From positions 1 through 22,303 of IMG/VR virus record IMGVR_UViG_3300044859_001373: DNA of 22,303 nt, one strand, 5' to 3'. The notes under the pieces were generated by a model. That model worked only from the letters and a program-made list of their open reading frames with translations, did not search any database and had not been told where the DNA came from. Shown here in pieces: positions 1 to 20,719 of this stretch. A program made the position numbers and the translations under genes. This stretch comes from a virus. Each line of letters begins with the position of its first letter. The first letter of the stretch is position 1.

Positions 1-765
1 TACATTCTGAAACCAACTAACATCTTCACCTCGAGCATGCATAAACCAAGCAATTCGACTAGCATCTAAAAAGCGTTGACGTCGATGGTCAAAGTGATTA
101 AAGTCTCTAGGATCTTCAGGCCGACCCTCGTACATAATTCTATTCTGAAAAGTTTCGTCGTTATTATTACCGGTTAGGTCGTGTCGATCGTGTAGTACAT
201 CAACGGAAATAGTTTCCATGATATTCAATATATAGGCAATCTGACTAATCCATGCGTCGGAAAGTTGATGTGCGCTTAGATAATCAAATAACATTAACCA
301 ATCTCTTGGCACAATTGGAAATACAGCATAAGGGTGTTCATTGTGTGTGGGCATTCTCAACACACGAAACTTACCGGTGTGCTCTTTTATTCGACTGTCC
401 CAGCCCTGTGTTTGCATGAGTGCATCGTCGTTCCAGAACATTAACCAACGTGCATTGCTTTTTTTAGCCAGTGCTGTTACATATTCATTCAAGCGAGTGT
501 AGCCAACCGGTTTAAATTCCAATATTGACGTTGAAATACCTCGACTGTCAAAATCTTTAAAAATATTTTTTGCCGCCCACTCAATAGACTCTGTGTCATC
601 ATCATCCATGCCCAGTAAAATTTGTATTGATTTTACATCATCGGCGTGGTCAATCAGGCTGTTTAGACTATCGAGCAATGCAGTTGTGCGTCCTCGTGTG
701 GGTAATAATACAGCCACATCATATTTTGGCTCTAAAATTAAAGCTGGTATTTCAATTAATTTCAT
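1..765 (-). CDS. GT-A fold glycosyltransferase (family 2-like), C-terminus off the window
   Basis: My own translation of the minus strand gives an uninterrupted 255-codon frame open at the left edge. The N-terminus reads MKLIEIPALILEPKYDVAVL followed by LPTRGR (residues about 21-26), the first-strand nucleotide-sugar-binding motif typical of family 2 glycosyltransferases. Further on is MFWNDDALM, which fits the metal-binding DxD-like position of the GT-A fold. It should therefore transfer a sugar from a nucleotide-sugar donor; the acceptor is unknown. The ATG overlaps the queD stop codon (ATGA), so the two genes are co-transcribed. The domain is seen by motif only and the C-terminal part is missing, so a related nucleotide-diphospho-sugar transferase is also possible. 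Confidence 0.72.
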   Translation of the reverse strand, partial: MKLIEIPALILEPKYDVAVLLPTRGRTTALLDSLNSLIDHADDVKSIQILLGMDDDDTESIEWAAKNIFKDFDSRGISTSILEFKPVGYTRLNEYVTALAKKSNARWLMFWNDDALMQTQGWDSRIKEHTGKFRVLRMPTHNEHPYAVFPIVPRDWLMLFDYLSAHQLSDAWISQIAYILNIMETISVDVLHDRHDLTGNNNDETFQNRIMYEGRPEDPRDFNHFDHRRQRFLDASRIAWFMHARGEDVSWFQNV

Positions 766-1295
766 TCAAATAAATCCTCGTTCCATTCTCTATGGCCTTC
801 TCTAAAAGCCATGTTTGCTTGTGTTTCACGCACTTCCACTCGGTAGCACCATAAACGACTTGCTTCGTACTCTCCCCAAAAGTCAGGAATGTAAACACCG
901 TTCACATACTTGTACAGCATGTCTGCAAGTGATTCACATCCAACTCGGGGCAAGATTGTGAGCTTGGCCAGTTTACGACGTTCCATTTCTTTGTAGAATT
1001 CTAGTTCCGGATCATCGGCACTGACCAAGGTTGTGTGATCAAATTGATCTTCTAAAATCTTTTTAAGTTCTTTGAGACCACCATAGTCAGCGGCCCAGTT
1101 GCGGACGTCAAGGTGGTTGGTACCAAAGTAAAACTTCATACTAAACGAGTAACCATGATTCAAGTTACAATGACTGTCGGCTCTCCACTGTCGGTAGGCA
1201 CACGGAAATGCATCAATGTACTCTTTGGTACTGGTAAACTTGTAGGTCACCGGACGATACTTTTGCTCGACTACTGCGTTAAAATTGTCTGACAT
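762..1295 (-). CDS. queD: QueD / 6-pyruvoyl-tetrahydropterin synthase family protein
   Basis: A 177-residue tunnelling-fold (T-fold) enzyme. In the family, QueD turns dihydroneopterin triphosphate, the FolE product, into 6-carboxytetrahydropterin on the way to preQ0. Visible motifs are SHCNLNHGYS (residues 41-50), with the catalytic-type Cys43 and His47; NWAADYGGLKEL (67-78), matching the family's 'DFxxLK' segment; FDHTTL (85-90), with the catalytic Asp-His; GCES (119-122); and VEVRET (153-158), with the substrate-binding Glu. Two places where most family members carry zinc-binding His appear as Tyr here (Tyr34 in CAYRQ, Tyr49 in HGY). This may mark a phage subfamily or an altered metal site. 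The start follows an AGGAG ribosome-binding site and a promoter at 1314-1342. With folE nearby and a DpdA-like gene in the window, DNA 7-deazaguanine synthesis is the likely role; a pterin cofactor role is the alternative. Confidence 0.85.
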   Translation of the reverse strand: MSDNFNAVVEQKYRPVTYKFTSTKEYIDAFPCAYRQWRADSHCNLNHGYSFSMKFYFGTNHLDVRNWAADYGGLKELKKILEDQFDHTTLVSADDPELEFYKEMERRKLAKLTILPRVGCESLADMLYKYVNGVYIPDFWGEYEASRLWCYRVEVRETQANMAFREGHREWNEDLFE

Positions 1296-1313
1296 GCTTT
1301 TCTCCTATGTTAA

Positions 1314-1342
1314 ATTATAGCATAGACAGCAGAATTTGTATA
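1314..1342 (-). promoter_or_regulatory. sigma70-type extended -10 promoter for queD
   Basis: On the minus strand TATAAT (1314-1319) is an exact -10 box preceded by TGC, giving an extended -10. A weak -35 (TATACA, 1337-1342, 4 of 6 matches) lies 17 bases upstream. It sits in the 81-base gap between the preceding methyltransferase gene and queD, just upstream of the queD AGGAG ribosome-binding site. Confidence 0.6.
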
Positions 1343-1376
1343 GCGGGATGATGCTCTAAAGACCGCTGAAGCTTGA

Positions 1377-2069
1377 CTACTTGGCTTCTACCACAATACG
1401 AATATTTCCGTCCATTTGTTCATTGTGAGTGCTAATGTCAACGTCCACAATCAAATAATTACAATCTATATTTGATAACGCATCACGGATAAACTGATTG
1501 TACATTGCACCGTTGGGCTTTGCTGTGTTAAAAAGTTTAATTAAATCAGTTTCACTTGTAAAGTCAGTGAATCTTTGAAAATTTAATGCCAGATATCCTC
1601 GCCCGCCAGGTTTGATCATTGAAACAAATTGTTGTATTTGATTCTCAAATTTAGTTAATGAACAAAAATGCAAGGCACAAATTGAAAATACTGATTCAAA
1701 ATATTGTTGATGATTTTTAACATATTCATCATCAAATTGATCATCAATGTCTCGATAGTCATCATTGAAATCTACACCAACAATATTAGGTATATATTTT
1801 TTAAAAATATTCCAGCCACATCCTATATCATATATTGTGTCCGGAGATTTTTCCAACAATGGTTTTAGATAATAAAAAGGTGTTAGAGAAAAATAAGTCT
1901 CTCGTAGCCGATCTCCCCACATTTGTCTAGGAGTACTTGCATGTTTTTGATACGGCCAGTGTTTGGTCCAGACTAAATGGTCAAAGTCTTTTTCGAGAGT
2001 CCGGTATAAATCTGTATTCAGAAACTCTTCTTTAAATTTGGATACATTGTATTCGTTTACGTTATTCAT
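1377..2069 (-). CDS. Class I SAM-dependent methyltransferase
   Basis: 230 residues with a clear Rossmann-type methyltransferase core. IYDIGCGWN (79-87) is motif I, the SAM-binding glycine loop. NIVGVDFND (95-103) ends strand beta-2 with the acidic residue that holds the SAM ribose. SICALHF and MIKPGGRGYLALNF correspond to strands 4 and 5. It resembles small phage and bacterial methyltransferases; the substrate cannot be read from the sequence. It starts three bases after the folE stop, so it is almost certainly co-transcribed with folE. That hints at a step on a pterin, a deazapurine or modified DNA, but this is inference from position only. Confidence 0.8.
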   Translation of the reverse strand: MNNVNEYNVSKFKEEFLNTDLYRTLEKDFDHLVWTKHWPYQKHASTPRQMWGDRLRETYFSLTPFYYLKPLLEKSPDTIYDIGCGWNIFKKYIPNIVGVDFNDDYRDIDDQFDDEYVKNHQQYFESVFSICALHFCSLTKFENQIQQFVSMIKPGGRGYLALNFQRFTDFTSETDLIKLFNTAKPNGAMYNQFIRDALSNIDCNYLIVDVDISTHNEQMDGNIRIVVEAK

Positions 2070-2072
2070 ATA

Positions 2073-2756
2073 TTAATTTCTTTTACACGCATTAACAATA
2101 TTCATAAACTCGTTACGAACTGATGGATCACTCTTGAATACTCCGCCAAGTTTGCTAGTAACTGTTGACGATCCTGTGTCCTCTACGCCGCGACTCTTTA
2201 CACAATAGTGTTGAGCATCGACTACCACCGCAATATCATCAGTGTCAAGAATGTATTGTAGAGCATGATATACCTGTTCTGTCAGACGCTCTTGAATTTG
2301 TGGACGTTTGCTAAAGTATTCAACAACACGATTGATCTTAGATAAGCCCAAGACTTTTTGTTTGGGAATGTAACCCACAGTTGCTACACCATCAATCACA
2401 ACAAAGTGATGTTCGCAATTGCTTTGTACGTTGACATTACGTTCAATAACCATTTCATCGTATTTCATCTTGTTGTCAACTGTAGTACATTTTGGAAACG
2501 CTTCATAGTCAAGACCCCAGAAGATTTCATTAACATACATCTTGGCCACACGCTTTGGTGTATCCATTAGACTATCATCACTAAGGTCTAAACCCAACAC
2601 TTCCATGATATGTTTAAAGTCTTTTTCGATTAACTCAATTTTATCTTTACGATCAACTGCATGTTGAAATGTAGGAGTTTCTACACCACACTTGACCAAG
2701 TGTTTGTGTACTAGTAGACCCAATTCAGGGTCGCATTTTGTTTTGTTGTATGACAT
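2073..2756 (-). CDS. folE: GTP cyclohydrolase I (FolE)
   Basis: 227 residues, the normal length for FolE. The enzyme opens the GTP ring to give 7,8-dihydroneopterin triphosphate, the shared precursor of folate, biopterin and 7-deazaguanines. Motifs: DTPKRVAKMY (65-74), the zinc-site CEHH (114-117, with Cys114 and His117), GYIPKQKVLGLSK (128-140), and HYCVKSRGV (183-191) with the third zinc ligand Cys185, followed by the C-terminal TGSSTVTSKLGGVF segment. All key residues look intact, so it should be active. The start follows a strong AAGGAAGG ribosome-binding site. Upstream lie a T4-late-like box and a weak terminator for the previous operon. With queD and the DpdA-like gene it supplies the first steps of a 7-deazaguanine pathway. 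Confidence 0.95.
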   Translation of the reverse strand: MSYNKTKCDPELGLLVHKHLVKCGVETPTFQHAVDRKDKIELIEKDFKHIMEVLGLDLSDDSLMDTPKRVAKMYVNEIFWGLDYEAFPKCTTVDNKMKYDEMVIERNVNVQSNCEHHFVVIDGVATVGYIPKQKVLGLSKINRVVEYFSKRPQIQERLTEQVYHALQYILDTDDIAVVVDAQHYCVKSRGVEDTGSSTVTSKLGGVFKSDPSVRNEFMNIVNACKRN

Positions 2757-2795
2757 ATTGATATCCTTCCTTACGCGGATTTTAAATTTTGATAT

Positions 2796-2815
2796 TTGCT
2801 ACCTTTGTGTAGCAA
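2796..2815 (-). other. Perfect hairpin in the folE leader
   Basis: TTGCTAC (2796-2802) and GTAGCAA (2809-2815) form a perfect 7-bp stem with a 6-base loop. The hairpin lies between the late-promoter-like box and the folE ribosome-binding site. No T-run follows it on the minus strand, so it is more likely a leader structure or protein-binding site than a terminator. Confidence 0.4.
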
Positions 2816-2818
2816 GAA

Positions 2819-2826
2819 TATTTATT
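2819..2826 (-). promoter_or_regulatory. Possible T4-type late promoter box upstream of folE
   Basis: The minus strand reads AATAAATA, 7 of 8 matches to the T4 late promoter TATAAATA recognised by gp55. It lies about 62 bases upstream of the folE start in the only sizeable gap of this region. In AT-rich DNA such a match can arise by chance. Confidence 0.35.
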
Positions 2827-2845
2827 AAGTTTAACAGATTTATTT

Positions 2846-2876
2846 AAAAAAGTCAAATCCTAAAGCCTGAAATTTG
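2846..2876 (-). terminator. Weak intrinsic terminator at the end of the sugar operon
   Basis: CAAAT (on the minus strand, from 2876) pairs with ATTTG (ending at 2854) across a 13-base loop overlapping the last codons of the oxygenase-like gene. A run of six T follows (2846-2851). The stem is short and AT-rich, but it lies exactly where the nine-gene run ends and the folE unit begins. Confidence 0.3.
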
Positions 2877-3392
2877 GAGAGTATATTTGTCTTCCATGCC
2901 TGCATTACAGCTTAGATGTTGGATATCACTATCCCACATCCAGCCCTCGCCCTGTTTCCAACCAACACTGGTTTCAAAAGTATTGTCCGGGGAAATGTAT
3001 TGAATCATTTGCCCAAATTTGTAATCTTCCAAATAGACATTGGCTCTGACTTTTAGTTCAGTACGTTCAGGAAATCGTTTTTTAATTTGGTAGAATGTAT
3101 CTTTGTGCAAGGTGGTTATACAGCCAGGTTGTTGTCTAATACTTGACATAGTGACAATTTCCATACCTAACTGTTGACCAATTTCTATAAAGTCTATCTG
3201 ATCCGGAGTCCACCAAAGTTGATTAATTTTAGTATTTTCATAACAGTAACTTTTTGGCAATCCACCATAGGATGCATAGATGTCAGCCATTTCGGTCACC
3301 TGATGTTTGATACAGGTATCTTCGTGTGTGGTATAGTCGGCATTTAGAAAAATACCAAAATTATAGTCTAGTTTAATTTTTTGTACAAACAT
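2853..3392 (-). CDS. 2-oxoglutarate/Fe(II) oxygenase-like (cupin-fold) protein
   Basis: 179 residues. The C-terminal half has the layout of a double-stranded beta-helix oxygenase: TTLHKDTF (93-100) gives the HxD iron pair (His96, Asp98), WDSDIQHLSCNAG (153-165) gives the distal His159, and DKYTLQISG (168-176) supplies a basic residue suited to 2-oxoglutarate. The spacing and the 'aspartyl/asparaginyl hydroxylase-like' feel fit small phage dioxygenases. The reaction would be hydroxylation of an unknown substrate. It is the last gene of the nine-gene run, three bases after the aminotransferase-like gene, so it may act on the same sugar or metabolite. The family call rests on motifs; a non-catalytic cupin is possible. 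Confidence 0.6.
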   Translation of the reverse strand: MFVQKIKLDYNFGIFLNADYTTHEDTCIKHQVTEMADIYASYGGLPKSYCYENTKINQLWWTPDQIDFIEIGQQLGMEIVTMSSIRQQPGCITTLHKDTFYQIKKRFPERTELKVRANVYLEDYKFGQMIQYISPDNTFETSVGWKQGEGWMWDSDIQHLSCNAGMEDKYTLQISGFRI

Positions 3393-3395
3393 TTT

Positions 3396-3992
3396 TTAAT
3401 CCTCAATGGTTATTTGTCTACAGTCTGGATAATCAACATACACGGGTTGCGGCCTATTAACCTTGATTACGTTGAGCAGGTCCAAACCAATTTCTGCTTC
3501 TTCTATGGTGGGCTTGTAATGATAACCCACCTTGAACACCTGCTGTGATTCCCATGGCTTGATAGCTAAGTCTCTGCCGTCGTAGCGTTGAGCCAGCATG
3601 ATATTGTAGGCTTCGACATCATCCAGCAAGATAGCACCACCACGACCAATGTGAAGTGGTTTGCCATGCCCAAAGCTCAGGCAGGTCAATGTGTCCGGAC
3701 GATACATATCTTGTTCGAGTCTACGTGCTGAATCCCAAATGCGTGTGCCTACAAAAGGGTATTCGCCGACCCAGCGTTGCCAGGCATGATCAAGGTACTC
3801 GTATTTGATACCTAACTTGTGCATGGTCATTGGAATACTCAAATAGGTATAAGGAGTAAACTTGCACTCCTTGACTTGATCGTATCGCAAACACAGTTCA
3901 ATAGCATGCGTACAACAATCAGTCATGATTGCATATGGCGCACCGGTAAACTCTGCTAGAGCTTGTTCAAATTTTAATATTTTGTCAAACAT
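3396..3992 (-). CDS. Half-size DegT/DnrJ/EryC1-family PLP protein
   Basis: 198 residues from the ATG at 3992, chosen because family homology begins there (FEQALAEFTGAPYAI). An upstream ATG at 4100 would overlap the previous gene by more than 100 bases. DegT enzymes are PLP-dependent sugar aminotransferases, usually 360-400 residues. The family landmarks are all present: the TDCCTHAIELCL helix start, TPYTYLSIP, an acidic residue in IWDSARRLEQD (Asp87) for the PLP ring nitrogen, the PLP lysine in SFGHGKPLHIGRGG (Lys111), and KVGYHYKPTIEEAEIGL, matching the usual GYNYRM..(A)AIGL. The C-terminal small domain is absent with no sign of a frameshift, so this is a compact form. Its start overlaps the radical-SAM gene by 8 bases. 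Confidence 0.75.
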   Translation of the reverse strand: MFDKILKFEQALAEFTGAPYAIMTDCCTHAIELCLRYDQVKECKFTPYTYLSIPMTMHKLGIKYEYLDHAWQRWVGEYPFVGTRIWDSARRLEQDMYRPDTLTCLSFGHGKPLHIGRGGAILLDDVEAYNIMLAQRYDGRDLAIKPWESQQVFKVGYHYKPTIEEAEIGLDLLNVIKVNRPQPVYVDYPDCRQITIED

Positions 3993-5865
3993 TGTCAATT
4001 TTGTTAATTCTGTTTTTTGATACTGATGCTCGTCGACCAAAATATAATTGTTCAAAGAAGTCCTGTTTGTTTTTATGCTTAAATGGATACGAAATTTCAA
4101 GTGTGTTTGGAACGTTTAATTCGTCAGAGTTGTTGAACACATAATCGTAAATGTTGTATTGATAGTCAACAGTATACGGGTAACTACCTTCATAATGATG
4201 TAGATAATCAGATTGCAACAACATTACTTCTTTATAAATTTCAGGATCCAACTCGCAAAATTCGTTGTTAATAATTTGATAAATTTCTTCAAGCGTCAAA
4301 TCAACATTATCAAACAATATGTGGATACTGGTCCAAAGCGCACTATGCCCATCCCTGTTTGGAATAATACTTTCGCCACTTTCTAAAAAAGAAACAATAA
4401 AATTCTTCATTCTATAGTATTCTTGAGTCAGTAAACTAGTACTAGGACCGTTAACAATTTTATTTTCAATTTGAGAATAGAAATCGTAGTAACTGATATT
4501 TTTATGTTTTCTTAGGAACCTACTTAGAATATGCGTGATGCCACTATAGTGATAAGTCATTATAATATAACTAAACAAATAACTCTTAACAAAATCCTCA
4601 AGGGGCATGTACTTTGTGGCTTTGACTACTACTTCTTTTTCCATAATATCATCACCCTCATTAACTAATGCACCAGTTACAAACTTTGGAACAGCAATAC
4701 TTTCAATCTGGTGCAGAGTCCGTTGCTCATAGCTGTTGAGTTCTGAGTTTTCTAATAATTGTGCAAGCCAAACATCCAGGCTGTTGTGTTGCCCGGCCTC
4801 GAGTATCAGCCCATGATTTTGTTTCCAAGTTTCATAGGTCTCATAGGGTAGTCCGAGGATCATTTCAGTGTATGCTGGAATACCATTTTTAAAACATTCT
4901 TCTAGCATTTCTTTAAGATCGCTGATTTCCATATTCTTTCTTTTGATAGCATCGAGAACTTGGTCGTTCATGCTTTGCACACTGACAGTAAATCCTCTAT
5001 TTTTATCATTACTAAAAAATATTTTTGCAATTTCTATAATTTTTTGTTTTGCATTTTTAGCCCATTGGGCAATAACAACATGCGGAAATCCCTTTGTGTT
5101 TTGTAATTGATGGATGTGTTGTGCAAACTTTTTATCTCTTTCATAGAGCATGCCAAAATTTGCATCAGCAATAAACAAATATGCAACACGATTGTTAGCC
5201 ATCCAAGTAAGCTCGTCTAGTACCCGATCTTCTGCAAATTTAAGAACCTTGCTGTATGTTAAGCTACCCCAATCACAAAAAGTACATGAATACGGGCATC
5301 CACGGTTGGTTTCTAATACTCCTTGCCAGTAATACTCAGGATTATCCTTGACTATTTTATCAAACACACCCGATGTGTATGGGCTTGGGTACTCTAAGTT
5401 GGCCATTCTAGCAAACGTACTAACTTTTTTAATTGGTTTATTATGATATAATGATAATAGTATATCTAAAAATGCCGGCTCACCTTCACCATTGACAATT
5501 GTATCAACATATGGATGTTTCTTAAAGAAAGATTTTTCATAGGGTAATTTAGTAACTTGTGGTCCACCAAATACAATAAGACACTTGGGCCATTTTTCTT
5601 TAATAGCCTCGGCTAGTTTTTTACAATATTCGTAATTCCAGACATAACAACTAAATGCTGCCACGGATGGATTATCAAAGTTTTTAATTGTTTCGTCAAT
5701 TGACATTCTTTTAAAGACCAACTCTTTAAGTGCAAAGTTATCTTTAATCACCGGGTTTTGTACAGCAAAACTCCAAAGGCATCCTACAGAATACGGCAAC
5801 CAATACCCTTCGGTTCCGCCAAACACATTTCCATGTGCGGGCTGTAGTAAGTAAACATTATGCAT
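3985..5865 (-). CDS. B12-binding-type radical SAM protein
   Basis: 626 residues. Residues about 1-145 look like a cobalamin-binding Rossmann domain (LIVFGGPQVT at 97-106; DTIVNGEGEPAFLDIL at 121-136, the usual end of this domain). Next comes the radical SAM core with the 4Fe-4S triad in NRGCPYSCTFCDWG (Cys190, Cys194, Cys197), then IADANFGM and EMILGLPYETYETWK, typical of this class. The remaining ~200 residues form a helical C-terminal extension. Such enzymes use a 5'-deoxyadenosyl radical for methylations and rearrangements. The canonical B12-ligand motif DxHxxG is not visible, so cobalamin binding is uncertain. It sits between the SGNH and DegT-like genes with 8-base overlaps on both sides, suggesting action on the same substrate. 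Confidence 0.85.
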   Translation of the reverse strand: MHNVYLLQPAHGNVFGGTEGYWLPYSVGCLWSFAVQNPVIKDNFALKELVFKRMSIDETIKNFDNPSVAAFSCYVWNYEYCKKLAEAIKEKWPKCLIVFGGPQVTKLPYEKSFFKKHPYVDTIVNGEGEPAFLDILLSLYHNKPIKKVSTFARMANLEYPSPYTSGVFDKIVKDNPEYYWQGVLETNRGCPYSCTFCDWGSLTYSKVLKFAEDRVLDELTWMANNRVAYLFIADANFGMLYERDKKFAQHIHQLQNTKGFPHVVIAQWAKNAKQKIIEIAKIFFSNDKNRGFTVSVQSMNDQVLDAIKRKNMEISDLKEMLEECFKNGIPAYTEMILGLPYETYETWKQNHGLILEAGQHNSLDVWLAQLLENSELNSYEQRTLHQIESIAVPKFVTGALVNEGDDIMEKEVVVKATKYMPLEDFVKSYLFSYIIMTYHYSGITHILSRFLRKHKNISYYDFYSQIENKIVNGPSTSLLTQEYYRMKNFIVSFLESGESIIPNRDGHSALWTSIHILFDNVDLTLEEIYQIINNEFCELDPEIYKEVMLLQSDYLHHYEGSYPYTVDYQYNIYDYVFNNSDELNVPNTLEISYPFKHKNKQDFFEQLYFGRRASVSKNRINKIDNV

Positions 5866-6556
5866 TTTTTGATTTTTTTATATAATTGTAAATATGCTCT
5901 GACCACATTTGGTGACCATAATCATTAAGGTGACAATCATTTTTACTTATCGCAACATTGTTGTCAACAATGAAATCCAACATATATCCAGCACCAACAA
6001 GTTTTAAATCTTGTGTGCTTTCTTTGCTAAAATAAAACGGAACATAAGTCCCAGGACACCGCAATTTTACACTATCGGTGTAACTTAGAAAATTGCAGGT
6101 TTGTTCGTATAACGAATAATAATTGTCAAACCAATTATCATAAAAATTGATCCCAGTTGACGTAGGAGTCAATGTTGACCACTTTTTTTGTGTGTTAAGA
6201 AAATTGTTATTACTGCGAAATAACTGTTTTGTTTTGGTGGTATACACTAAACTTTTTTTAATAGCTTCTGTGTGTACTGGGTTATCATTGTCAATGATAA
6301 AGGATTTTCGTGATGGGTGACTCCATCCAATTATTACCAAATCGTTGTCTGTAATTCTGTTAAGATTTTCTAAAAACGTATGATAAATGAAAAAATTATC
6401 TGCTCCTGCTTGAGCATAATTTTCGTACTCTATATTTAGCTTTTTACTAAGAAGATTGGGCCATCCATGTTCGGGTGACCCAATATTGTAAGGCAAGGAC
6501 ATACTTTGTCCAAATACCCAAAGTTTACTGTTTTCTATTATACCAAAGCCAGGCAT
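5858..6556 (-). CDS. SGNH/GDSL hydrolase-like protein
   Basis: 232 residues. SGNH blocks can be followed: block I as LWVFGQSMS (12-20; Ser18, with GQS in place of the usual GDS), block II as NYAQAGADNFFIYHTF (Gly/Asn oxyanion region), a VIIGWSHPSRK strand, and block V as DCHLNDYGHQMWSEHI near residues 207-222 (Asp and His of the triad). The family hydrolyses esters, often acyl or acetyl groups on sugars. The Asp-to-Gln change beside the serine may affect activity. The start overlaps the end of galE by 32 bases; later in-frame ATGs would remove block I. The role is probably glycan acyl-ester removal or transfer in the sugar operon, inferred from context. Confidence 0.72.
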   Translation of the reverse strand: MPGFGIIENSKLWVFGQSMSLPYNIGSPEHGWPNLLSKKLNIEYENYAQAGADNFFIYHTFLENLNRITDNDLVIIGWSHPSRKSFIIDNDNPVHTEAIKKSLVYTTKTKQLFRSNNNFLNTQKKWSTLTPTSTGINFYDNWFDNYYSLYEQTCNFLSYTDSVKLRCPGTYVPFYFSKESTQDLKLVGAGYMLDFIVDNNVAISKNDCHLNDYGHQMWSEHIYNYIKKSKNA

Positions 6557-7502
6557 GTTTAATTATATCATCTAGTGAAAACTGCTGTTTCCAATTGGTT
6601 AAAGAACTAAATTTATCTGCGCTGGCAGTCAGGATCTCCGGATCACCATCTCTTTGTGGACCTATTTTTACCTGTAGTTTTAATCCTGTAATTTTTTCTG
6701 CTGAATTGATAATGTCCTGATTACTTGATCCTGTACTGGTTCCAAGATTATAAGTCCCACTAGGAAGTTCTGCATCAATTGCCAATATGTGTGCATGTGC
6801 AATGTCCTCAACATGAATGTAATCTCTAATGCAGGTTTTGTCAGCAGTGGGATAATTGTTACCATTGAGAGTGAATTCTTGACCATCCCGTAAACTCTCT
6901 AACACACGAGCAATAATGTGTGTTGCATTGGGTGCTTGCCCGTGCTGTATTTTACTATCTGCACCGCAGGCATTGAAATATCGGAATGCAACATATTCTA
7001 ATCCATAAGCTACTTTATATCCTTCTAAAATCCATTCCATAGCCCGTTTTGTTTCTCCATATGGACTAATTGGTTCGCAAGGATCAACTTCGTGACAAGG
7101 AGTCATAATTGGATTACCATAAACACTAGCACTACTACTAAAGATAATTTTGGGACGATATTCTGCTGGAATACTACAAATTCTATCCAGAAATTGTATG
7201 TTCTTTGCAATGTTATTATTCCAGTATTCTTTTGGATTCTTAACACTGGGTCCAACTAGACTAGTTCCTGCACAATGAATGACCGCGGCTGGCCTGGCGG
7301 CCTCGATGACATTGATGATTTCCTCAGATGCAAAATCCCCTCGATGGAATTGATTTGGTACCAACATTAAATGTTTGGGCAACGTATTCTGATCAACTCC
7401 AAGAACTATGTACCCTAACCGCTTTAACGAAATCATTGTTTGTCCACCGATATACCCGGCAGCACCAGTAACTACTACTAATTTATAAGAGTCAACATTC
7501 AT
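6525..7502 (-). CDS. galE: UDP-glucose 4-epimerase (GalE) or closely related NDP-sugar epimerase
   Basis: 325 residues, the usual length for an extended short-chain dehydrogenase. VTGAAGYIGG (11-20) is the NAD-binding glycine motif, FSSSASVYGNP (121-131) carries the catalytic Ser, and SPYGETKRAMEW (146-157) gives the YxxxK pair (Tyr148, Lys152). YFNACGAD, RDYIHVEDIAHAH and GTYNLGTSTGSSNQ are strongly GalE-like. It interconverts UDP-glucose and UDP-galactose, or the N-acetyl forms, supplying donors for the adjacent glycosyltransferases. It begins with an ATGA overlap with the glycosyltransferase stop and runs into the SGNH gene. Confidence 0.92.
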   Translation of the reverse strand: MNVDSYKLVVVTGAAGYIGGQTMISLKRLGYIVLGVDQNTLPKHLMLVPNQFHRGDFASEEIINVIEAARPAAVIHCAGTSLVGPSVKNPKEYWNNNIAKNIQFLDRICSIPAEYRPKIIFSSSASVYGNPIMTPCHEVDPCEPISPYGETKRAMEWILEGYKVAYGLEYVAFRYFNACGADSKIQHGQAPNATHIIARVLESLRDGQEFTLNGNNYPTADKTCIRDYIHVEDIAHAHILAIDAELPSGTYNLGTSTGSSNQDIINSAEKITGLKLQVKIGPQRDGDPEILTASADKFSSLTNWKQQFSLDDIIKHAWLWYNRKQ

Positions 7503-8695
7503 TCAACTTTCCTAACTTTATATTTTGCGCCAGCCACATGGTCTCGATATCGATTGCCTGCACGATTCCATTGCTCTCCTTTGCCTTGCATGATATCGCA
7601 GATTCTATCAATAGTTCCGTTGTTCCAGTCACTGATGAGACCAATGTTATGATGAGATTTTTCTAATAGATTATTAAGTTTTCTAACTACATCATCCTCA
7701 CTCCAGGGAATGTACAGACGGTCTAGGTCGTTAGCAAATGTTTCTGGAAAACTACGATAAGCAGGGTAAAGCACATTAGCGCCAAGTGTGTCAGCTTCTG
7801 AAACTGTGTTTGACACCCAGTCTTGAAGAGCACAATTGAAAAGAACACGAGTGTCATTAAGAAGAGAGTAATACTCATTTTTAGTTAAGTTTTCATGAAT
7901 CTCAAGTAATCCACTAGCTTGTAATTTGCGAGCACGTTTTACATAATTATTATTGTTTGACCGCAACGGACCTCCAGAGAAGATAGCAAAGCTAATCTGA
8001 GGCTGTTCTTCTTGAACACGTTCAGCCAGGTCCATAAAGAAACCTGGTTGCTTTTCTTGGTCAAATCTTGCGGCAAACCCTACCCGCATTTTACGATCGG
8101 CAAATGGTTTGATATTTGCTGTGCCACCTATGCGTTCTAACACTTCTTCTTTGCCAAATGCTAAACCGCTAATATTGTAGATAGGTGCAGTCCAATTGGC
8201 AATACGCATGTGGGCTACCATTTCTTCGTTGGTAGCCAGTACACCTGTAACAAATTCATTGACCATTTGTTCATACAAACTCATCCACTTGCTCATGCCC
8301 CATACATGTACAAAGTCGTCGGGATCAATAGCCTGTGCCAGACAACGAACATACACACGAGGTCTTTGTTCTGTTGGAATCTGATTCATGATATAAGGCA
8401 AGCTTTCAATGCCTGGCTGGAACATGTCTTCAAAGTACACAACATCTTTTCCTGAGCATTCACCATTACGCATCAGCTGTACAAGATTCATCATCTGACT
8501 CATGCCAAAGTAACTGCGCCCGTGTGCGTCTAAAACCTGTCCTACACTAATACTTTTAGTATTGTCTATAGTGGATCCAGGAACATACACTACATCAATG
8601 CCTCGACGTTCAAATACACGTCGATTCCATTCAGTGAGTTGTAGTGTGTAACGGGCTTCGTAACTTTCCAAGCCCATGTAGAATAGTTTTCTCAT
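7499..8695 (-). CDS. GT-B fold glycosyltransferase-like protein
   Basis: 398 residues. The second half has GT4-like features: KMRVGFAARFDQEKQPGFFM (about 223-242), the start of the nucleotide-sugar domain; ISFAIFSGGPL; LLEIHENLTKNEYYSLLNDT, like the 'G.l..ee...l...' segment; and NTVSEADTLGANVLYP, matching the donor-binding E(x7)E-type region. The N-terminus MRKLFYMGLESYEARYTLQL resembles a protein I associate with T4-like phages, although I cannot confirm this without a search. It sits directly upstream of galE with an ATGA overlap, so a UDP-hexose donor is likely. Possible acceptors are modified DNA bases (as with T4 DNA glucosyltransferases), virion protein or host glycan; nothing in the sequence decides. 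Confidence 0.7.
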   Translation of the reverse strand: MRKLFYMGLESYEARYTLQLTEWNRRVFERRGIDVVYVPGSTIDNTKSISVGQVLDAHGRSYFGMSQMMNLVQLMRNGECSGKDVVYFEDMFQPGIESLPYIMNQIPTEQRPRVYVRCLAQAIDPDDFVHVWGMSKWMSLYEQMVNEFVTGVLATNEEMVAHMRIANWTAPIYNISGLAFGKEEVLERIGGTANIKPFADRKMRVGFAARFDQEKQPGFFMDLAERVQEEQPQISFAIFSGGPLRSNNNNYVKRARKLQASGLLEIHENLTKNEYYSLLNDTRVLFNCALQDWVSNTVSEADTLGANVLYPAYRSFPETFANDLDRLYIPWSEDDVVRKLNNLLEKSHHNIGLISDWNNGTIDRICDIMQGKGEQWNRAGNRYRDHVAGAKYKVRKVE

Positions 8696-8703
8696 ATTAA
8701 CCC

Positions 8704-8910: not shown

Positions 8911-8921
8911 ACTATTTCCTA

Positions 8922-9371
8922 TTAAATTTTGATTGACAAACTTGAGCGAGAAATTTCATACTTGATCAAAGCGCCGTTCTCACCATCTTCGGCCACTTCA
9001 ATCCAGACCGCACGGTCAGGATACCTTTCGGCAATCTGCAAGTACAGATCGTCTGAGATCATTTCGCAACTCTTGTAGTCTAACGACAGTACACCTTGGT
9101 TGCTAGAATACAATTTTTCGAGCCAACGCTTGAATTGTATAAACTCCACATCTCGGTCATTGTGGAATACGTCAATCCAAACCCTGAAATGAAAAATATG
9201 ACGATGAGGATAGCCCAAAAACGAAACATCATATTCATCTCCTGTTGCTAGTTGCGGGTCTTCCAAGGCTGCCGGATACTTGTGGATGCCTTCTTTGCGG
9301 AACGTGACCCAGATTTTTCGTTCTGCATATTGTTTAATTCTATCAATTTTTTCTCGTTGCTCTTGATTCAT
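8922..9371 (-). CDS. T-fold (QueD/PTPS-like) protein, function unknown
   Basis: 149 residues. I see a layout parallel to QueD: a histidine cluster PHRHIFHFRVWIDVF (55-69; His56, His58, His61) where QueD has its zinc-binding HGH strand; DVEFIQFKRWLEKLY (74-88) like 'DFxxLK'; a conserved-style SCEMISDDLYLQI (101-113) resembling the GCESLADMLYKY of the QueD in this window; and a strand WIEVAEDGENG (123-133) ending in Glu, as in VEVRET. This suggests a tunnelling-fold relative, either a second QueD-type enzyme, a QueF- or FolE-type relative, or a non-enzymatic pterin or deazapurine binder. The typical Cys-x3-HGH order is not kept, so the same reaction as QueD is doubtful. It has an ATGA start overlap with the preceding gene, near the head of the promoter-driven operon. 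Confidence 0.5.
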   Translation of the reverse strand: MNQEQREKIDRIKQYAERKIWVTFRKEGIHKYPAALEDPQLATGDEYDVSFLGYPHRHIFHFRVWIDVFHNDRDVEFIQFKRWLEKLYSSNQGVLSLDYKSCEMISDDLYLQIAERYPDRAVWIEVAEDGENGALIKYEISRSSLSIKI

Positions 9372-9664
9372 AATTTAAGACTTTCAGTAGTTATAATTTT
9401 ACCTAGTGATTCAGAAAAATTCTCATCGCTGTTGATAATATAAGTTGTGTGGTTTGTTCTATCTGTTCTTTGATCGTAGTTCCTAAAGATTACAATTTTA
9501 CCGCCAATAGCAGATTTAACTTGTATATTTAGGCCGCCGTCTGGGTAATCATCAGTACTATTCATTAGTCGACTGTGTTTGCTAATATTACGAGCAGGCA
9601 CAGCCTCGCAATCAGAGCCAACTCTATCTATTTTGTTAAAAAGATATCTCCAAAACCATTTCAT
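9368..9664 (-). CDS. Conserved-looking 98-residue phage protein, function unknown
   Basis: 98 residues. It has a tryptophan-rich basic N-terminus (MKWFWRYLFNKIDR), a polar middle, and a C-terminal half with regular beta and helix patterns (GLNIQVKSAIGGKIVIFRNY, then YIINSDENFSESLGKIITTE). No signal peptide or membrane span is clear. It is the first gene after the exact-consensus promoter at 9685-9713, with an AAGGA ribosome-binding site a few bases before its ATG, so it should be strongly expressed early in infection. Its start overlaps the stop of the upstream 59-residue gene (ATGA). I do not recognise a domain. Confidence 0.7.
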   Translation of the reverse strand: MKWFWRYLFNKIDRVGSDCEAVPARNISKHSRLMNSTDDYPDGGLNIQVKSAIGGKIVIFRNYDQRTDRTNHTTYIINSDENFSESLGKIITTESLKL

Positions 9665-9840
9665 GTATTGTCCTTGTTCATGCTATTATATTGCTTTTTA
9701 TCAACAATGTCAACTAGAACTGGGCCTAAATTATTAATTTTATCAAGATTCTCTGGGAACCAACTATCTACCAAATCAGGATCAAAAAAATACTCAATTA
9801 AATCTCCGTTGAGAGATTGGATATGATATATCTGATTCAT
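9661..9840 (-). CDS. 59-residue acidic protein of unknown function
   Basis: An ORF just under 60 residues, found by translating the gap. It begins MNQIYHIQSLNGDLIEYFF and continues with DPDLVDSWFPENLDKINNLG. It starts two bases after the stop of the 159-residue acidic gene, and its TGA overlaps the ATG of the next gene, so it fits the operon exactly. It is acidic with several aromatic residues and has no recognised domain. Its last third also contains the -35 and -10 boxes of a consensus promoter, so this DNA is both coding and regulatory. Confidence 0.65.
   Translation of the reverse strand: MNQIYHIQSLNGDLIEYFFDPDLVDSWFPENLDKINNLGPVLVDIVDKKQYNSMNKDNT
9685..9713 (-). promoter_or_regulatory. 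Exact-consensus sigma70 promoter inside the 59-residue gene
   Basis: On the minus strand TTGACA (9708-9713), a 17-base spacer and TATAAT (9685-9690) match the bacterial sigma70 consensus at all 12 positions. The predicted transcript would start about 14 bases before the ATG at 9664, leaving room for the AAGGA ribosome-binding site. It would drive the nine-gene sugar and radical-SAM run down to 2853. Confidence 0.85.
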
Positions 9841-9842
9841 TT

Positions 9843-10322
9843 TTAGTTTGGAAATGGCCAGTTATTGCTGGCAGCGGGGCGAGGTTTTAATTTAATATTT
9901 TCTTCAATCACTGTACCATCATCTTCACACAGACTAATCTCAAAAGGTGCATATATCACAACCTGATCATCCTCGACACCCCATTCGTGTTCGCCATCAA
10001 ATAACCAGGCGGCGCCACCTTCGTAGTAGGATTCTTTGATTTCTTGTTGCTCTGTTTCAGTGATATCATCACTAAATTCCCATTCGATTCCTATACTGTC
10101 GTCAAACTCACAGCCCCAACCACAATCGGTTCGAGCATAAGCAATGTCGTCTTCTTTCCAGGGAAGATTGCAATCTAGATCCTCTTCAATAAATCCTTGT
10201 CCCCATCGATATGTTTCACGCATGGTAAACCAACTGACAGTATCATTGTCGTTTTGGCGAAACATTTCTACCACCCACTGAACACTTTTCTTTTCCAAGG
10301 GTTTGATAAGATATACACTCAT
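9843..10322 (-). CDS. Acidic phage protein, paralogue of the gene at 10498
   Basis: 159 residues, very rich in Asp, Glu and Trp. It shares an order of blocks with the 136-residue protein two genes upstream: an N-terminal 'L..KKSV/AVE' region, YRWGQGFIEED against YRWGEFYCESD, then DCGWGCEFDD..IEWEFSDDITETEQQEI against DDGCWADWTFPEDMTEEEQAEI, then GEHEWGVEDDQVVIYAPFEI against EELGWSNNDTDYILQGPLEL, and a closing EDDGTVI against EEGNVVY. The two are clearly paralogues by eye. I know similar acidic genes from marine T4-like phages only as unknowns. A charge-based role such as nucleic-acid mimicry or protein inhibition is possible but speculative. Its start overlaps the small membrane gene (ATGA). 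Confidence 0.75.
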   Translation of the reverse strand: MSVYLIKPLEKKSVQWVVEMFRQNDNDTVSWFTMRETYRWGQGFIEEDLDCNLPWKEDDIAYARTDCGWGCEFDDSIGIEWEFSDDITETEQQEIKESYYEGGAAWLFDGEHEWGVEDDQVVIYAPFEISLCEDDGTVIEENIKLKPRPAASNNWPFPN

Positions 10323-10501
10323 TTGAATCCCCGATAAGCGTCAAACATAAGAGCGCCACCAATTGTAAATCCCACTATGGCAAGTGCATAGTTACCTGTG
10401 ACCAATGCACTTAGCCCAGACAGTAGATTCAACCCGCCAATTGTAAGGCTAATTGATTTACTGTTGCGATTACACCATTCTAAAAATTTACCCATCATCA
10501 T
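10319..10501 (-). CDS. Small membrane protein (two predicted spans)
   Basis: 60 residues: a short charged N-terminus (MMMGKFLEWCNRNSKS), then two hydrophobic stretches at about 17-35 and 38-54 separated by a short TGN turn, and a basic C-terminus (DAYRGFK). This fits a hairpin inner-membrane protein. It lies exactly between the two acidic paralogues, with ATGA overlaps on both sides. No family is recognised. Of the three Met codons at the start, the real one is uncertain by one or two residues. Confidence 0.65.
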   Translation of the reverse strand: MMMGKFLEWCNRNSKSISLTIGGLNLLSGLSALVTGNYALAIVGFTIGGALMFDAYRGFK

Positions 10502-10908
10502 TCTTCTCCTGAATATACAACATTGCCTTCTTCATCAGTCAACTCTAGCGGTCCTTGTAAGATGTAATCTGTGTCATTGTTTGACCAACCTAGTTCTTCC
10601 ATGCCATCAAAGTAATCTTCATCCCATGCTGTTTCAATCTCTGCTTGTTCTTCTTCCGTCATGTCCTCAGGAAAAGTCCAATCAGCCCAACATCCATCGT
10701 CAAGACTTGACAGTTCCCAATCATAATCACTTTCGCTTAGATTGTATTCTCCATCTTCAGGCTCAATAACAGGTTGTTCATCGCTTTCGCAATAGAACTC
10801 GCCCCAACGATAACCTTCTTCACGAATGATTACTTTGCCGTCTTTGTACCAGAACTGTCGTTCAACAGCAGACTTTTTGTGTAGCGTTTTTAGCGTCCAT
10901 GTTGCCAT
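10498..10908 (-). CDS. Acidic phage protein, paralogue of the gene at 9843
   Basis: 136 residues, strongly acidic and tryptophan-rich, with DDGCWADWTFPEDMTEEEQA as the core block. A basic N-terminal segment (LKTLHKKSAVERQFWYKDGK) precedes the acidic body. The ATG at 10908 follows a strong AAAGGAG ribosome-binding site. It is the upstream member of an acidic-membrane-acidic triplet with 4-base overlaps, which suggests the three products are made in fixed proportion and may act together. No enzyme motif is visible. Confidence 0.75.
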   Translation of the reverse strand: MATWTLKTLHKKSAVERQFWYKDGKVIIREEGYRWGEFYCESDEQPVIEPEDGEYNLSESDYDWELSSLDDGCWADWTFPEDMTEEEQAEIETAWDEDYFDGMEELGWSNNDTDYILQGPLELTDEEGNVVYSGEE

Positions 10909-10920
10909 GATTTGGCTCCT

Positions 10921-11112
10921 TTACTTAGTAATGCAAGCGGCCCAGACAATGTAGCCACCATTGGTTTTGCTCCAGGGACAATGTTGTTCCCATAGTGTGT
11001 TTGCTTCTGCAACATCAGCATGAGACTTCATCAACTGATCCAGTTGCGGTCTTGTTGCATAACCATCTAAACTCCAGTCATGCGACTCTAACGCCGTTGC
11101 TAGGTCAGTCAC
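10921..11112 (-). CDS. 63-residue protein of unknown function
   Basis: A compact protein (MTDLATALESHDWSLDGYAT at the start, ending in YIVWAACITK). It is predicted mostly helical with a Trp/Cys-rich C-terminus, and has no membrane span or domain that I recognise. Its start lies two bases after the stop of the Bax-inhibitor-like gene, so it is co-transcribed with it. The small size and lack of family evidence keep confidence moderate. Confidence 0.55.
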   Translation of the reverse strand: MTDLATALESHDWSLDGYATRPQLDQLMKSHADVAEANTLWEQHCPWSKTNGGYIVWAACITK

Positions 11113-11114
11113 AA

Positions 11115-11810
11115 TTATTTCCTATCACCAAACAACTGCAACAGGTTCAAGAACAAGTTGATAAAGTCCATGTACAAGGTCAGCGCACCACGAACTTCGG
11201 CCACGTCGCTGGTTTCGGTACTGAGTTCTTCACGAATCTTTTGCGTGTCATAGGCAGTCAATCCAAGGAAGATAATAATTGCTAGTGCGGAGATCACCAT
11301 CTGCATCACAGTTGATCCAATAAAGATATTCACAATACTGGCAATAACAATAGCAATCAGTCCAACAAACATAAACTTGCCCATGCTATCTAGACTTTGT
11401 TTGGTGAAGTAGCCATAGCCACTCATCACCCCAAACAGAATGGCAGCACCCATAAATGCTGACACAATTGATCCCATAGTGAACACAGCAAAGATCATTG
11501 CAAAACTCAGGCCCATCAGGGCCGCAAAGCCATGCAAGCATAACTGTGCCACACTCTTAGTAGGATTGTTACCTAGTACCATAGCAACACCAAAGATTGC
11601 CGCAAGTGGTGAAAAGATCACAATCCATTTCAACCAACCTGTAAAAAAGAATGCCAGCAACTCTGGACTAGATCCTACAAAGTAACTCACAAACATTGAT
11701 ACTATTACAGCAAGACTCATGTGTCCATACACACGACCCATTGCTGAATTGATTTCTTCTGCTGAGCGGTAATTTACAATACCATTATCAGTATAATTTG
11801 CACCAAACAT
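11115..11810 (-). CDS. Bax inhibitor-1 / YccA-family membrane protein
   Basis: 231 residues with seven hydrophobic spans at about 28-46, 62-80, 88-110, 113-131, 146-166, 168-186 and 208-228. The C-terminal signature is clear: FLGLTAYDTQKI (181-192) with the conserved Asp188, and LYMDFINLFLNLLQLFG (212-228), matching the LYLDFINLFLxLL motif of BI-1/TMBIM proteins. Family members include pH-sensitive calcium-leak channels such as bacterial YetJ; YccA inhibits the FtsH membrane protease in E. coli, and lambda CIII targets the same protease. The ATG follows an AAGGAG site. A phage copy could protect phage proteins from FtsH or alter ion leak to time lysis; both are inferences. All conserved residues seem intact. 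Confidence 0.92.
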   Translation of the reverse strand: MFGANYTDNGIVNYRSAEEINSAMGRVYGHMSLAVIVSMFVSYFVGSSPELLAFFFTGWLKWIVIFSPLAAIFGVAMVLGNNPTKSVAQLCLHGFAALMGLSFAMIFAVFTMGSIVSAFMGAAILFGVMSGYGYFTKQSLDSMGKFMFVGLIAIVIASIVNIFIGSTVMQMVISALAIIIFLGLTAYDTQKIREELSTETSDVAEVRGALTLYMDFINLFLNLLQLFGDRK

Positions 11811-11820
11811 ATTTTTCTCC

Positions 11821-12012
11821 TTAATTATCTAAGTCCATTGAAATCCACTCTTTGACCACTGCAATAAGTTCTTCTTCTGTATTGCACATAACCTTGGCGG
11901 TCTTCCATTCTTCTTTCTTATCGCGACCACCAACTTCTACCATGAAGCCGTTGTCATAACGATTAAGACTGATGTTTTCATTTACTTTTGCAAGTTTAGT
12001 TAGTTTTGCCAT
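11821..12012 (-). CDS. 63-residue conserved-looking phage protein
   Basis: The start is taken at the ATG at 12012 because AAGGAA sits 8 bases before it. The longer frame from 12042 would overlap the upstream gene and has no ribosome-binding site. The product (MAKLTKLAKVNENISLNRYD, then GRDKKEEWKTAKVMCNTEEE) has a beta-hairpin followed by a helix (ELIAVVKEWISMDLD), a small alpha/beta layout seen in short T4-like phage proteins of unknown role. No catalytic motif is visible. It sits between the 180-residue unknown and the BI-1 gene. Confidence 0.7.
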   Translation of the reverse strand: MAKLTKLAKVNENISLNRYDNGFMVEVGGRDKKEEWKTAKVMCNTEEELIAVVKEWISMDLDN

Positions 12013-12022
12013 TTTTATTTCC

Positions 12023-12565
12023 TTATTTAAACGTTGAATCATTTTTATACTGAGTCCAGTCAGTGAATGTTTCGCGCCTTGTTAACTCATGCAGACTATG
12101 ACACCAGACGCCAGGATTGGTAGCGGCAAAGTCTTTATCATCTAGTTTAATTGTGGCATTGTATCCTAGTTGTTGGATGTAAGGTAGTTTAACACTGATC
12201 ATTGGAATGAACAAGTGATGTTCAACTAATCCGCTTTCCAACAGTCCTTCGACATTTTTTTGGTCAATGTCAAGAGTACACCAATAACCTAGGTCTAAAA
12301 AGTATTGAATTAATTTTTCCCAAGGATTCCAAAAAACAGCATCATTGGTTTCAATATGAATTGGAAAACTCATATTTGCGCCAAAGTAAATGTGTTTTAT
12401 ACGCTGGGTAGAATCTGAGTGACTATTTTGCTCATCTAATATTTCTTTAATGTCATTGGGCGATTGTAATCCAACTACAAAAAGAGTATTCATTCCATAA
12501 GCAGGAGTGTGTTCAACTTCTTTGCCAAAGAAGAACTTGATATTATTGTGACCTTCGCGATTCAT
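12023..12565 (-). CDS. 180-residue phage protein of unknown function, linked to the DpdA-like gene
   Basis: It begins MNREGHNNIKFFFGKEVEHT and shows alternating strand and helix units: TLFVVGL, HIYFGANMSF, LGYWCTLDID, HHLFIPMISVKLPY, YNATIKLDD. This suggests a partial TIM-barrel or Rossmann-like protein. There is no CxxxCxxC cluster, so it is not a radical SAM enzyme such as QueE by itself. The C-terminal NPGVWCHSLHELTRRETFTD is striking and probably functional. It is tightly coupled to the DpdA-like gene through the coiled-coil gene (4-base overlap), so a role in the same base-modification process is possible but not shown. Confidence 0.65.
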   Translation of the reverse strand: MNREGHNNIKFFFGKEVEHTPAYGMNTLFVVGLQSPNDIKEILDEQNSHSDSTQRIKHIYFGANMSFPIHIETNDAVFWNPWEKLIQYFLDLGYWCTLDIDQKNVEGLLESGLVEHHLFIPMISVKLPYIQQLGYNATIKLDDKDFAATNPGVWCHSLHELTRRETFTDWTQYKNDSTFK

Positions 12566-12768
12566 CGTTCATCATCCCAGGGAATCTCTTGTTCGTATTC
12601 GTATTGTTGTTTGCGTAGTGCTGACAGTTGATCTAAAACTGTTAGTTTTTGTTTTTTAAGATTTTGCATTAACTCGTCGGTGTACACACCCGACTTTTCT
12701 AATGTGTCAATCTTGTCATGGAGCACACGGTGTGACTCCTCAAGCATGCGAATTTTTCCCTTGTGCAT
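12562..12768 (-). CDS. Small coiled-coil protein (DUF465/YdcH-like pattern)
   Basis: 68 residues, almost all helical. RMLEESHRVLHDKIDTLEKS followed by DELMQNLKKQKLTVLDQLSAL gives two heptad-rich helices joined by a short turn, the pattern of DUF465/YdcH or SlyX-like mini-proteins (the LKKQKL motif is typical). The C-terminus is acidic (EIPWDDER). It overlaps the end of the DpdA-like gene by 29 bases, so translation is probably coupled. It may act as an oligomerising partner; the function is unknown. Confidence 0.65.
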   Translation of the reverse strand: MHKGKIRMLEESHRVLHDKIDTLEKSGVYTDELMQNLKKQKLTVLDQLSALRKQQYEYEQEIPWDDER

Positions 12769-14305
12769 TTAAATTCTCCAATTGATCTAAAAGTGATTCA
12801 TCAAACTCATCTGATGACCGGGTGCTTTCAACTTCAAACAAGTTATTAAATTGTGTATGTGCGTTGGTTGTTTTCTTACCAGTAAAACCTCTAGTGCCTA
12901 TGATCTGATCCCAAAACTTCGAATGTTGGTTAATCAAGTCAAGACTCTTTTGTCTGTCTTTAAGGCTAAAGATTTTATCTATTAAGTCCCTAAATTTTAC
13001 ACGATCAAAGGTTTCTCGGACAAGCATTCCGGGCAACAAGCCTGCATCATATTGCCTATTTGCTTCCTGTACTGCTCGAATGTGATGCCAAACATTGTGC
13101 CCCATCATCAAAGCATAGCTAAAACTATCCCATGATGTGCGACCTTCTTTGCCAATCTTATTAAGATCACCAGGTTTATAAATGCAAACATCCTTAATGC
13201 CCATTCTTGAACTAATTGGACTGTCTTCAAACAAGCTGTGTACTTTGTCTTGTATTACTGCATCTCTAAAACTTCTTGTGTCGATAGAATATTTTTTATC
13301 ATCTGCAGTTGGTTCCATTTGATAAGACCACTTGCCTCTATCTTCCACACGTAGATTGGTGTAGATTTGTCCATTGGCTGTGGCAAGGAAAGGGCTGGCA
13401 CAGTCAAAGCTGATGGTGAACTTGGGATTGTGATAACGTCTAACTGCACGTTGAACATCAGTAAGCAAACACGCCCACTCAAGTTTGCTTGTACCTAAAA
13501 AGTGCATCCAATCATGTAGGCCTTCTTCTAATAGACCATCGTGAATTAGTGTAATTAATCTTTTTAGAACCAAGTGAACATCACACATGTTCTGACCACC
13601 CATGCCCCAGCCGTTAAATGGTCGTTCGTATTTGGAAGGGTCGCAGTAATCCTTCATCAAACTGTACCAGTGGTCGGCCTCTCCATGATTACCACCTTGC
13701 AGTACATTTAGAATCTTGACATTGCCGTGTCTATTTTTAATCCAATATTCGTTGTTGTACTTTGTGGCACTCACTGCATCGTCGTAGCTAAAAATACCAC
13801 ATGCGGCAGCGGCCTTTGGATCACGGAATGTCCAAGTTGGAATATCCATGGTCATTCCGTATGTGCCCAGACCGCATTGCCATTCTAATACTGCTCTGCG
13901 TTTTTTCTCTGCGGCTTTGTCTGTGGGATCAGCCCAGCGACCGGGCCATACACCCTTGGCTATCTGGAATCCGCCGGAGTCCAAAATCATGAGACTGTTT
14001 GGATCCCTGTTTCGAACCATGTCTTCTTTTGGATCTACCTTGGCCAGATCTAGGTTGGCATGACCCGCTGAGTAAAGACTGTACTTGTATGGAAATAACC
14101 CTTTTTGTGGACTGAGCCAATTAAGCATTTCCATGTCAGGGATTGCTGTGGGCATACGTGCTGGTTCAATATATTGTTCAGTACGTTGCCTGCCCACATA
14201 CGAAGCATAGAAACTACTAATAGCAGGCAAAAACACAGCATAGTCACTTTGCTGTGCTGTTAAATTGTCCTGCGTGACTGAGCTATTATTTTCTTTAAGA
14301 TCCAT
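12740..14305 (-). CDS. dpdA: TGT-like / DpdA-type 7-deazaguanine DNA transglycosylase
   Basis: 521 residues. The core matches tRNA-guanine transglycosylase: LDSGGFQ (108-114) carries the general acid/base Asp109; VLQGG (201-205) and GMGGQ (234-238) match the substrate-binding QGG and GG motifs; MHFLGTSK (267-274); and FDCASPF (300-306) holds the nucleophile Asp301 in the place of TGT FDCxxPTR. The canonical tRNA-TGT zinc motif CxCxxC...H is not visible, and the C-terminal ~200 residues are unlike TGT. Both points favour DpdA-type enzymes, which swap guanine in DNA for preQ0 or a derivative. FolE and QueD nearby support this. It is co-transcribed with the sliding clamp. A phage enzyme on tRNA is the main alternative. 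Confidence 0.82.
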   Translation of the reverse strand: MDLKENNSSVTQDNLTAQQSDYAVFLPAISSFYASYVGRQRTEQYIEPARMPTAIPDMEMLNWLSPQKGLFPYKYSLYSAGHANLDLAKVDPKEDMVRNRDPNSLMILDSGGFQIAKGVWPGRWADPTDKAAEKKRRAVLEWQCGLGTYGMTMDIPTWTFRDPKAAAACGIFSYDDAVSATKYNNEYWIKNRHGNVKILNVLQGGNHGEADHWYSLMKDYCDPSKYERPFNGWGMGGQNMCDVHLVLKRLITLIHDGLLEEGLHDWMHFLGTSKLEWACLLTDVQRAVRRYHNPKFTISFDCASPFLATANGQIYTNLRVEDRGKWSYQMEPTADDKKYSIDTRSFRDAVIQDKVHSLFEDSPISSRMGIKDVCIYKPGDLNKIGKEGRTSWDSFSYALMMGHNVWHHIRAVQEANRQYDAGLLPGMLVRETFDRVKFRDLIDKIFSLKDRQKSLDLINQHSKFWDQIIGTRGFTGKKTTNAHTQFNNLFEVESTRSSDEFDESLLDQLENLNAQGKNSHA

Positions 14306-20713: not shown

Positions 20714-20719
20714 ATAGTA

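Follow-up and report, generated by a model that had tools for sequence, protein, structure and literature searches.

The stretch of viral DNA analysed here (the window), a 22.3-kb fragment from IMG/VR, matches a 341,990-bp viral contig (G001) at 99.98% identity, and the phage is therefore a jumbo phage. All features given below by window coordinates lie on the minus strand. The window carries a family B DNA polymerase (16029-18689; 886 aa, C-terminus NTFQTLFDFS; phrog_262, E 9e-192) and, with one gene intervening, a 243-aa sliding clamp of PCNA fold (14321-15052). The clamp model has a pLDDT of 92; all 50 PDB matches listed are PCNA-type, the top one being yeast PCNA (E 6.5e-11). A gene for a 521-aa DpdA-like guanine transglycosylase (12740-14305) starts 15 bp past the clamp gene. 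This order, pointed out in an earlier note on the same DNA, recurs in 79/79 loci with enough sequence. A clamp homologue also precedes the transglycosylase in PA5oct and Vibrio phage 2.275.O, and in Sinorhizobium phage Phosso a gene of comparable size is found there.

The left part of the window contains genes of 7-deazaguanine synthesis. FolE, GTP cyclohydrolase I (2073-2756), scores 326 bits against NF006824 (cut-off 202) and has both active-site motifs, CEHH and HYC. The QueD-like protein (762-1295), of the 6-carboxytetrahydropterin synthase family, matches the PTPS profile PF01242 with 53.7 bits (cut-off 22.4; E 2.5e-14) and phrog_2389 (E 1e-34), while scoring under the strict TIGR03367 equivalog cut-off. 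Both genes are intact, in agreement with the earlier note. The 8922-9371 gene encodes a 149-aa protein of phrog_17812.

Other genes surround these two groups. Glycosyltransferase genes (1-765 and 7499-8695), GalE (6525-7502), a DegT-type aminotransferase and methyltransferase-like genes are interspersed with the que genes over positions 1-8695 and could serve surface sugars or extra base decoration; a 398-aa glycosyltransferase is found in 66/80 family loci. A B12-binding, KedN5-like radical SAM protein (3985-5865) is also read there and overlaps the DegT-type gene (3396-4100). Directly downstream of the transglycosylase, 12023-12565 encodes a 180-aa protein of unknown function and without PHROG match, kept in 74/80 family loci. 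A complete ClpP-type protease gene (18706-19299) lies directly upstream of the polymerase but is rare (14/80 family loci), and a Twitch/SPASM-type radical SAM protein (19643-20764) is encoded upstream of the replication genes. In PA5oct the DNA polymerase (L082:3605-8831) is annotated as two parts split by a Hef-like homing endonuclease gene.

Fold, class and distribution of the transglycosylase

An AlphaFold model of the transglycosylase, built with 32 relatives in the alignment (pLDDT 85.5, pTM 0.84), has the TGT-type (beta/alpha)8 fold. All 50 PDB matches listed by Foldseek are tRNA-guanine transglycosylases (TGT; E 6e-7, probability 1.0), and the named matches in a viral structure library include the Motura TGT and the nt-1 DpdA2. 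The motifs occur in TGT order. DSGGFQ (13964-13981, residues 109-114), invariant in 33/33 relatives, would supply the general base D109 by TGT homology. FDCASPF (13388-13408, residues 300-306) aligns with FDCVMP of E. coli TGT and contains the predicted nucleophile D301. D109, D154, G237, D301 and S304 are all invariant (33/33). The zinc motif CxCxxC-x20-32-H of E. coli TGT is missing from the same 33 sequences. The earlier description of a TGT-like protein bearing these two motifs and no zinc motif is confirmed.

Profile searches place the protein less precisely. Pfam, PHROG and PADLOC contain nothing that matches it, and NCBIfam gives no match to a TGT model; PF01702 gave zero matches to the family across 11 genomes at E 1, as it also does for the proven 9g DpdA and the nt-1 DpdA2, and the family profile found no match among PDB sequences. 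The comparison with DpdA and TGT families proposed in the earlier note confirmed membership of the superfamily (DpdA2, E 7e-8, score 67) without separating the protein from TGT (E 1.5e-7, score 63, with a TGT profile of six sequences); the highest scores among 20 column-shuffled profiles each were 24 and 21, respectively. Clustering with DpdA2 rather than TGT was consequently dropped, the six-sequence TGT profile having scored equally well. Grouping with DpdA1 (9g type) was rejected because the profile score did not exceed that of shuffled profiles. PA5oct-like phages are not among the DpdA2 tblastn matches. For the groups DpdA3 and DpdA4, reportedly named by Cui et al. in 2023, a profile search found no relative in Cellulophaga phi19:2, and 150 kb of Campylobacter phage CJLB-14 gave no convincing match. 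Judged by sequence, the transglycosylase appears to be a separate branch of the superfamily that belongs neither to the 9g DpdA nor to the nt-1 DpdA2 group, and sequence by itself fails to distinguish between a DNA and a tRNA substrate.

The window enzyme resembles each of its better known relatives in part. DpdA2 of Vibrio phage nt-1, described by Hutinet et al. 2019 (PMC6884629), and the window enzyme both belong to the TGT superfamily, lack the zinc motif and are about 460-520 aa long; they share DSGG and (F/Y)D..S motifs, a C-terminal LF and adjoining FolE and other que genes. However, nt-1 has QueC, and the match of the window enzyme to the DpdA2 profile is no better than that to TGT. With 9g DpdA it would share the base-swap role, and it does share a place beside the replicative clamp gene of the phage, the C-terminal LF and the lack of a PF01702 match, but 9g has DSGAF and VDSSS in place of DSGGFQ and FDCAS, the profile match is not significant and the 9g pathway has GAT-QueC. 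Fold, catalytic aspartates and motif order are common to bacterial TGT, from which the missing zinc site, a long extra C-terminal region and the clamp synteny set it apart. The TGT of Achromobacter phage Motura shares the DSGGFQIRQGV block and a phage que cluster; it differs in its zinc-type motif, and Motura has QueC. The Motura enzyme (L142:6774-8195), with such a motif despite its que cluster, is a possible TGT-DpdA intermediate.

Relatives of the transglycosylase were found in at least 228 viral stretches in IMG/VR. In GenBank they are encoded by 13 phage records, eleven of PA5oct-like Pseudomonas phages (PA5oct, MIJ3, Paride and Callisto among them), Phosso and Vibrio 2.275.O, each annotated as 'hypothetical protein'. 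Two further searches gave the same GenBank set plus weak partial matches in Xanthomonas and Erwinia phages; when PA5oct and Vibrio 2.275.O proteins served as queries, scans of viral contigs gave no matches. The papers on MIJ3, Callisto and Paride mention neither deazaguanine nor queuosine, and none of the papers searched links PA5oct with queuosine. The block of polymerase, clamp and transglycosylase is also shared by MAG contigs (L143-L146) attributed to Pacearchaeota, Neomarinimicrobiota, Euryarchaeota and Phycisphaerae. These were not accepted as hosts, and such contigs are probably misbinned phage contigs. The family would add to phage DNA modification a widespread, unannotated transglycosylase branch that includes isolated P. 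aeruginosa jumbo phages.

Pathway genes and the nature of the base

FolE and QueD are present in 15/15, and QueE in 14/15, of the large contigs or isolates with the transglycosylase. The earlier note had suggested that QueE and QueC might lie elsewhere in the phage or come from the host. This proved correct for QueE, which lies in G001 at 112051-112926, about 2 kb past the left edge of the window, and matches phrog_2076; a long insertion separates its second cluster cysteine from the third, a feature also seen in PA5oct, Vibrio 2.275.O and Moby. QueC, on the other hand, was not found within the 341,990-bp contig, beyond which the genome may extend, and neither was QueF. Weak QueC matches in G001 and G004 (that of G004 above the cut-off) were traced to NadE (NAD synthase), and weak QueF matches in G001, G002 and G008 overlap FolE. 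Nine control phages whose pathway is of the preQ0 or dG+ type did give QueC matches in the same search, so that the absence of QueC is not due to a lack of sensitivity. The preQ0 transporter YhhQ is absent from G001. Among the phages with the transglycosylase, only Vibrio 2.275.O has a genuine QueC above the cut-off or a QueF. Its transglycosylase gene is followed by QueF, YhhQ, QueC, a glutamine-amidotransferase-like gene and FolE.

This gene content bears on the substrate. Phages with que genes but without DpdA have been proposed to boost queuosine (PMC6884629), and a transglycosylase whose profile likeness to TGT equals its likeness to DpdA2 could similarly modify tRNA, the que genes raising queuosine and thereby supporting translation during infection. 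We consider this very improbable, given that the zinc motif is missing from 33/33 sequences, that the gene is fixed beside clamp and polymerase, that its tail is polymerase-like and that, with QueC absent and QueF confined to Vibrio 2.275.O, the phage alone cannot make preQ1. A transglycosylase of the DpdA type that acts on DNA, as the earlier note had proposed, agrees with the fold, the catalytic residues, the missing zinc motif, FolE/QueD/QueE and the clamp synteny, and computation strongly supports a DpdA-type DNA modification system. The best explanation, in which we have high confidence, is that the phage synthesises a 7-deazaguanine and exchanges guanines of its own DNA for this base. 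DNA would thus be the substrate of the transglycosylase, and the modification may protect from restriction. If real, it would alter restriction and sequencing of PA5oct-like phages.

FolE, QueD and QueE, the latter encoded outside the window, would convert GTP into 7-carboxy-7-deazaguanine (CDG). The gene that might take the place of QueC is that of the phrog_17812 protein, present in 69/80 family loci. It occurs in 6/6 genomes without QueC (G001, PA5oct, Phosso, ACP17, BUCT-ZZ01, phi19:2) and in 0/9 genomes with QueC; GenBank has it in 26 phage records, and in ACP17 and BUCT-ZZ01 it lies near the DpdA2 gene. The Cellulophaga phiST/phi19:2 pathway shares FolE, QueD, QueE, phrog_17812 and the absence of QueC with that of the window phage, but a profile search found no relative of the window transglycosylase there. 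Among Cellulophaga records, FolE was counted in 12, QueC in 7 and phrog_17812 in 5, as totals from lists not matched record by record. The window protein has no Pfam match. It has a conserved H..HRH, which by eye resembles the QueD zinc site, and its C-terminus matches QueD weakly (score 26.6, best shuffle 18.3). Co-occurrence and this faint hint of fold suggest an enzyme acting on CDG. Cui et al. 2023 (NAR 51:9214, a paper cited in PMC13329287) are said to have found dCDG and dDG in phages and to have predicted a CDG decarboxylase, DpdL; the phrog_17812 protein may be DpdL or another enzyme. A QueC-independent route is thus indicated, with a specific candidate gene.

The earlier note had named preQ0 or derivatives as the bases that DpdA enzymes put into phage DNA. 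The pathway genes agree with a 7-deazaguanine; preQ0 is not expected as the phage-made base because the long contigs lack QueC, and a phage missing QueC alone could carry CDG, as Hutinet et al. pointed out (PMC6884629). Since phrog_17812 is found in all QueC-less and in no QueC-bearing genomes, we favour CDG or 7-deazaguanine, with some confidence. CDG would be used directly or would first be processed by the phrog_17812 protein; the simplest such step would be a decarboxylation that yields 7-deazaguanine. Alternatively, host QueC could convert the CDG raised by the phage enzymes into preQ0 for insertion into DNA by the transglycosylase. Such host supply has been proposed for phages without pathway genes (PMC6884629), and the relative in Vibrio 2.275.O is accompanied by its own QueC and QueF; but the strict alternation of phrog_17812 with QueC, and the lack of a preQ0 transporter in G001, leave this fallback route, and a preQ0-type base in general, rather doubtful. 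With CDG or 7-deazaguanine as with preQ0, the transglycosylase would exchange DNA guanine for the base by means of D301 and D109.

The transglycosylase tail and the sliding clamp

Near its C-terminus the transglycosylase carries FNNLFE (12833-12850, residues 486-491), a candidate clamp-binding peptide; the tail that holds it has a pLDDT of less than 50. The pattern F..[LFM]F[DEG] is found in 52/63 unique relatives when the final 60 residues are considered (0.5% in shuffles) and in 53/65 unique polymerases when the final 12 are; the window polymerase has FQTLFD (16038-16055). Only 3/340 G001 proteins have it in their last 60 residues, the transglycosylase, the polymerase and one other. In three lineages the tail resembles the polymerase C-terminus of its own phage, even where the motif changes. 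The pair is SFNSLFDV and HFDSLFGW in PA5oct, and NNNDLFGW and NNTDLFDW in Vibrio 2.275.O.

A related feature is found in the other DpdA groups. The dipeptide [LMIF]F falls among the six C-terminal residues in 28/30 DpdA1 and 18/21 DpdA2 clusters versus 16/340 G001 proteins, an enrichment that Fisher values overstate because the clusters are related by descent. The motif was first spotted in the window family and later extended to DpdA1 and DpdA2, and relatives are not independent. DpdA1 proteins often end in Q-x-E-LF and DpdA2 proteins in S-L-E-[DE]-LF, tails that we take to resemble bacterial beta-clamp and T4-type clamp peptides. The LF tail is thus common to three groups of low mutual sequence similarity, which suggests the sliding clamp as a docking site of DpdA enzymes. 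A literature search on DpdA and clamp gave nothing relevant among the matches listed.

The LF motifs could also be structural and unrelated to the clamp, since those of DpdA1 and DpdA2 stand at the extreme protein end, where a packing role is conceivable. This is the less likely reading, though a serious one: the motif of the window family sits in a low-confidence tail that follows the polymerase of its own phage in three lineages, and the frequent DpdA1 ending is like the bacterial beta-clamp motif. We rather favour docking of the transglycosylase on the neighbouring clamp. Its polymerase-like tail peptide would then probably couple the base swap to replication; the timing with replication put forward in the earlier note gains from this clamp-binding-like tail, to the extent that docking takes place. 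If true, riding on the clamp would explain how a base-swapping enzyme that acts on finished DNA keeps pace with replication. A broader view, to which we give an even chance, is that DpdA enzymes in general are clamp clients, swapping guanines at or behind the fork by means of a clamp peptide fitted to each lineage, and that the jumbo-phage branch is a QueC-less DpdA subfamily using CDG or, via phrog_17812, 7-deazaguanine.

The C-terminus of the QueD-like protein is NEDLFE, and this protein is one of six in G001 with LF close to the C-terminus. This may be due to chance or may correspond to a second clamp-tethered protein of the pathway.
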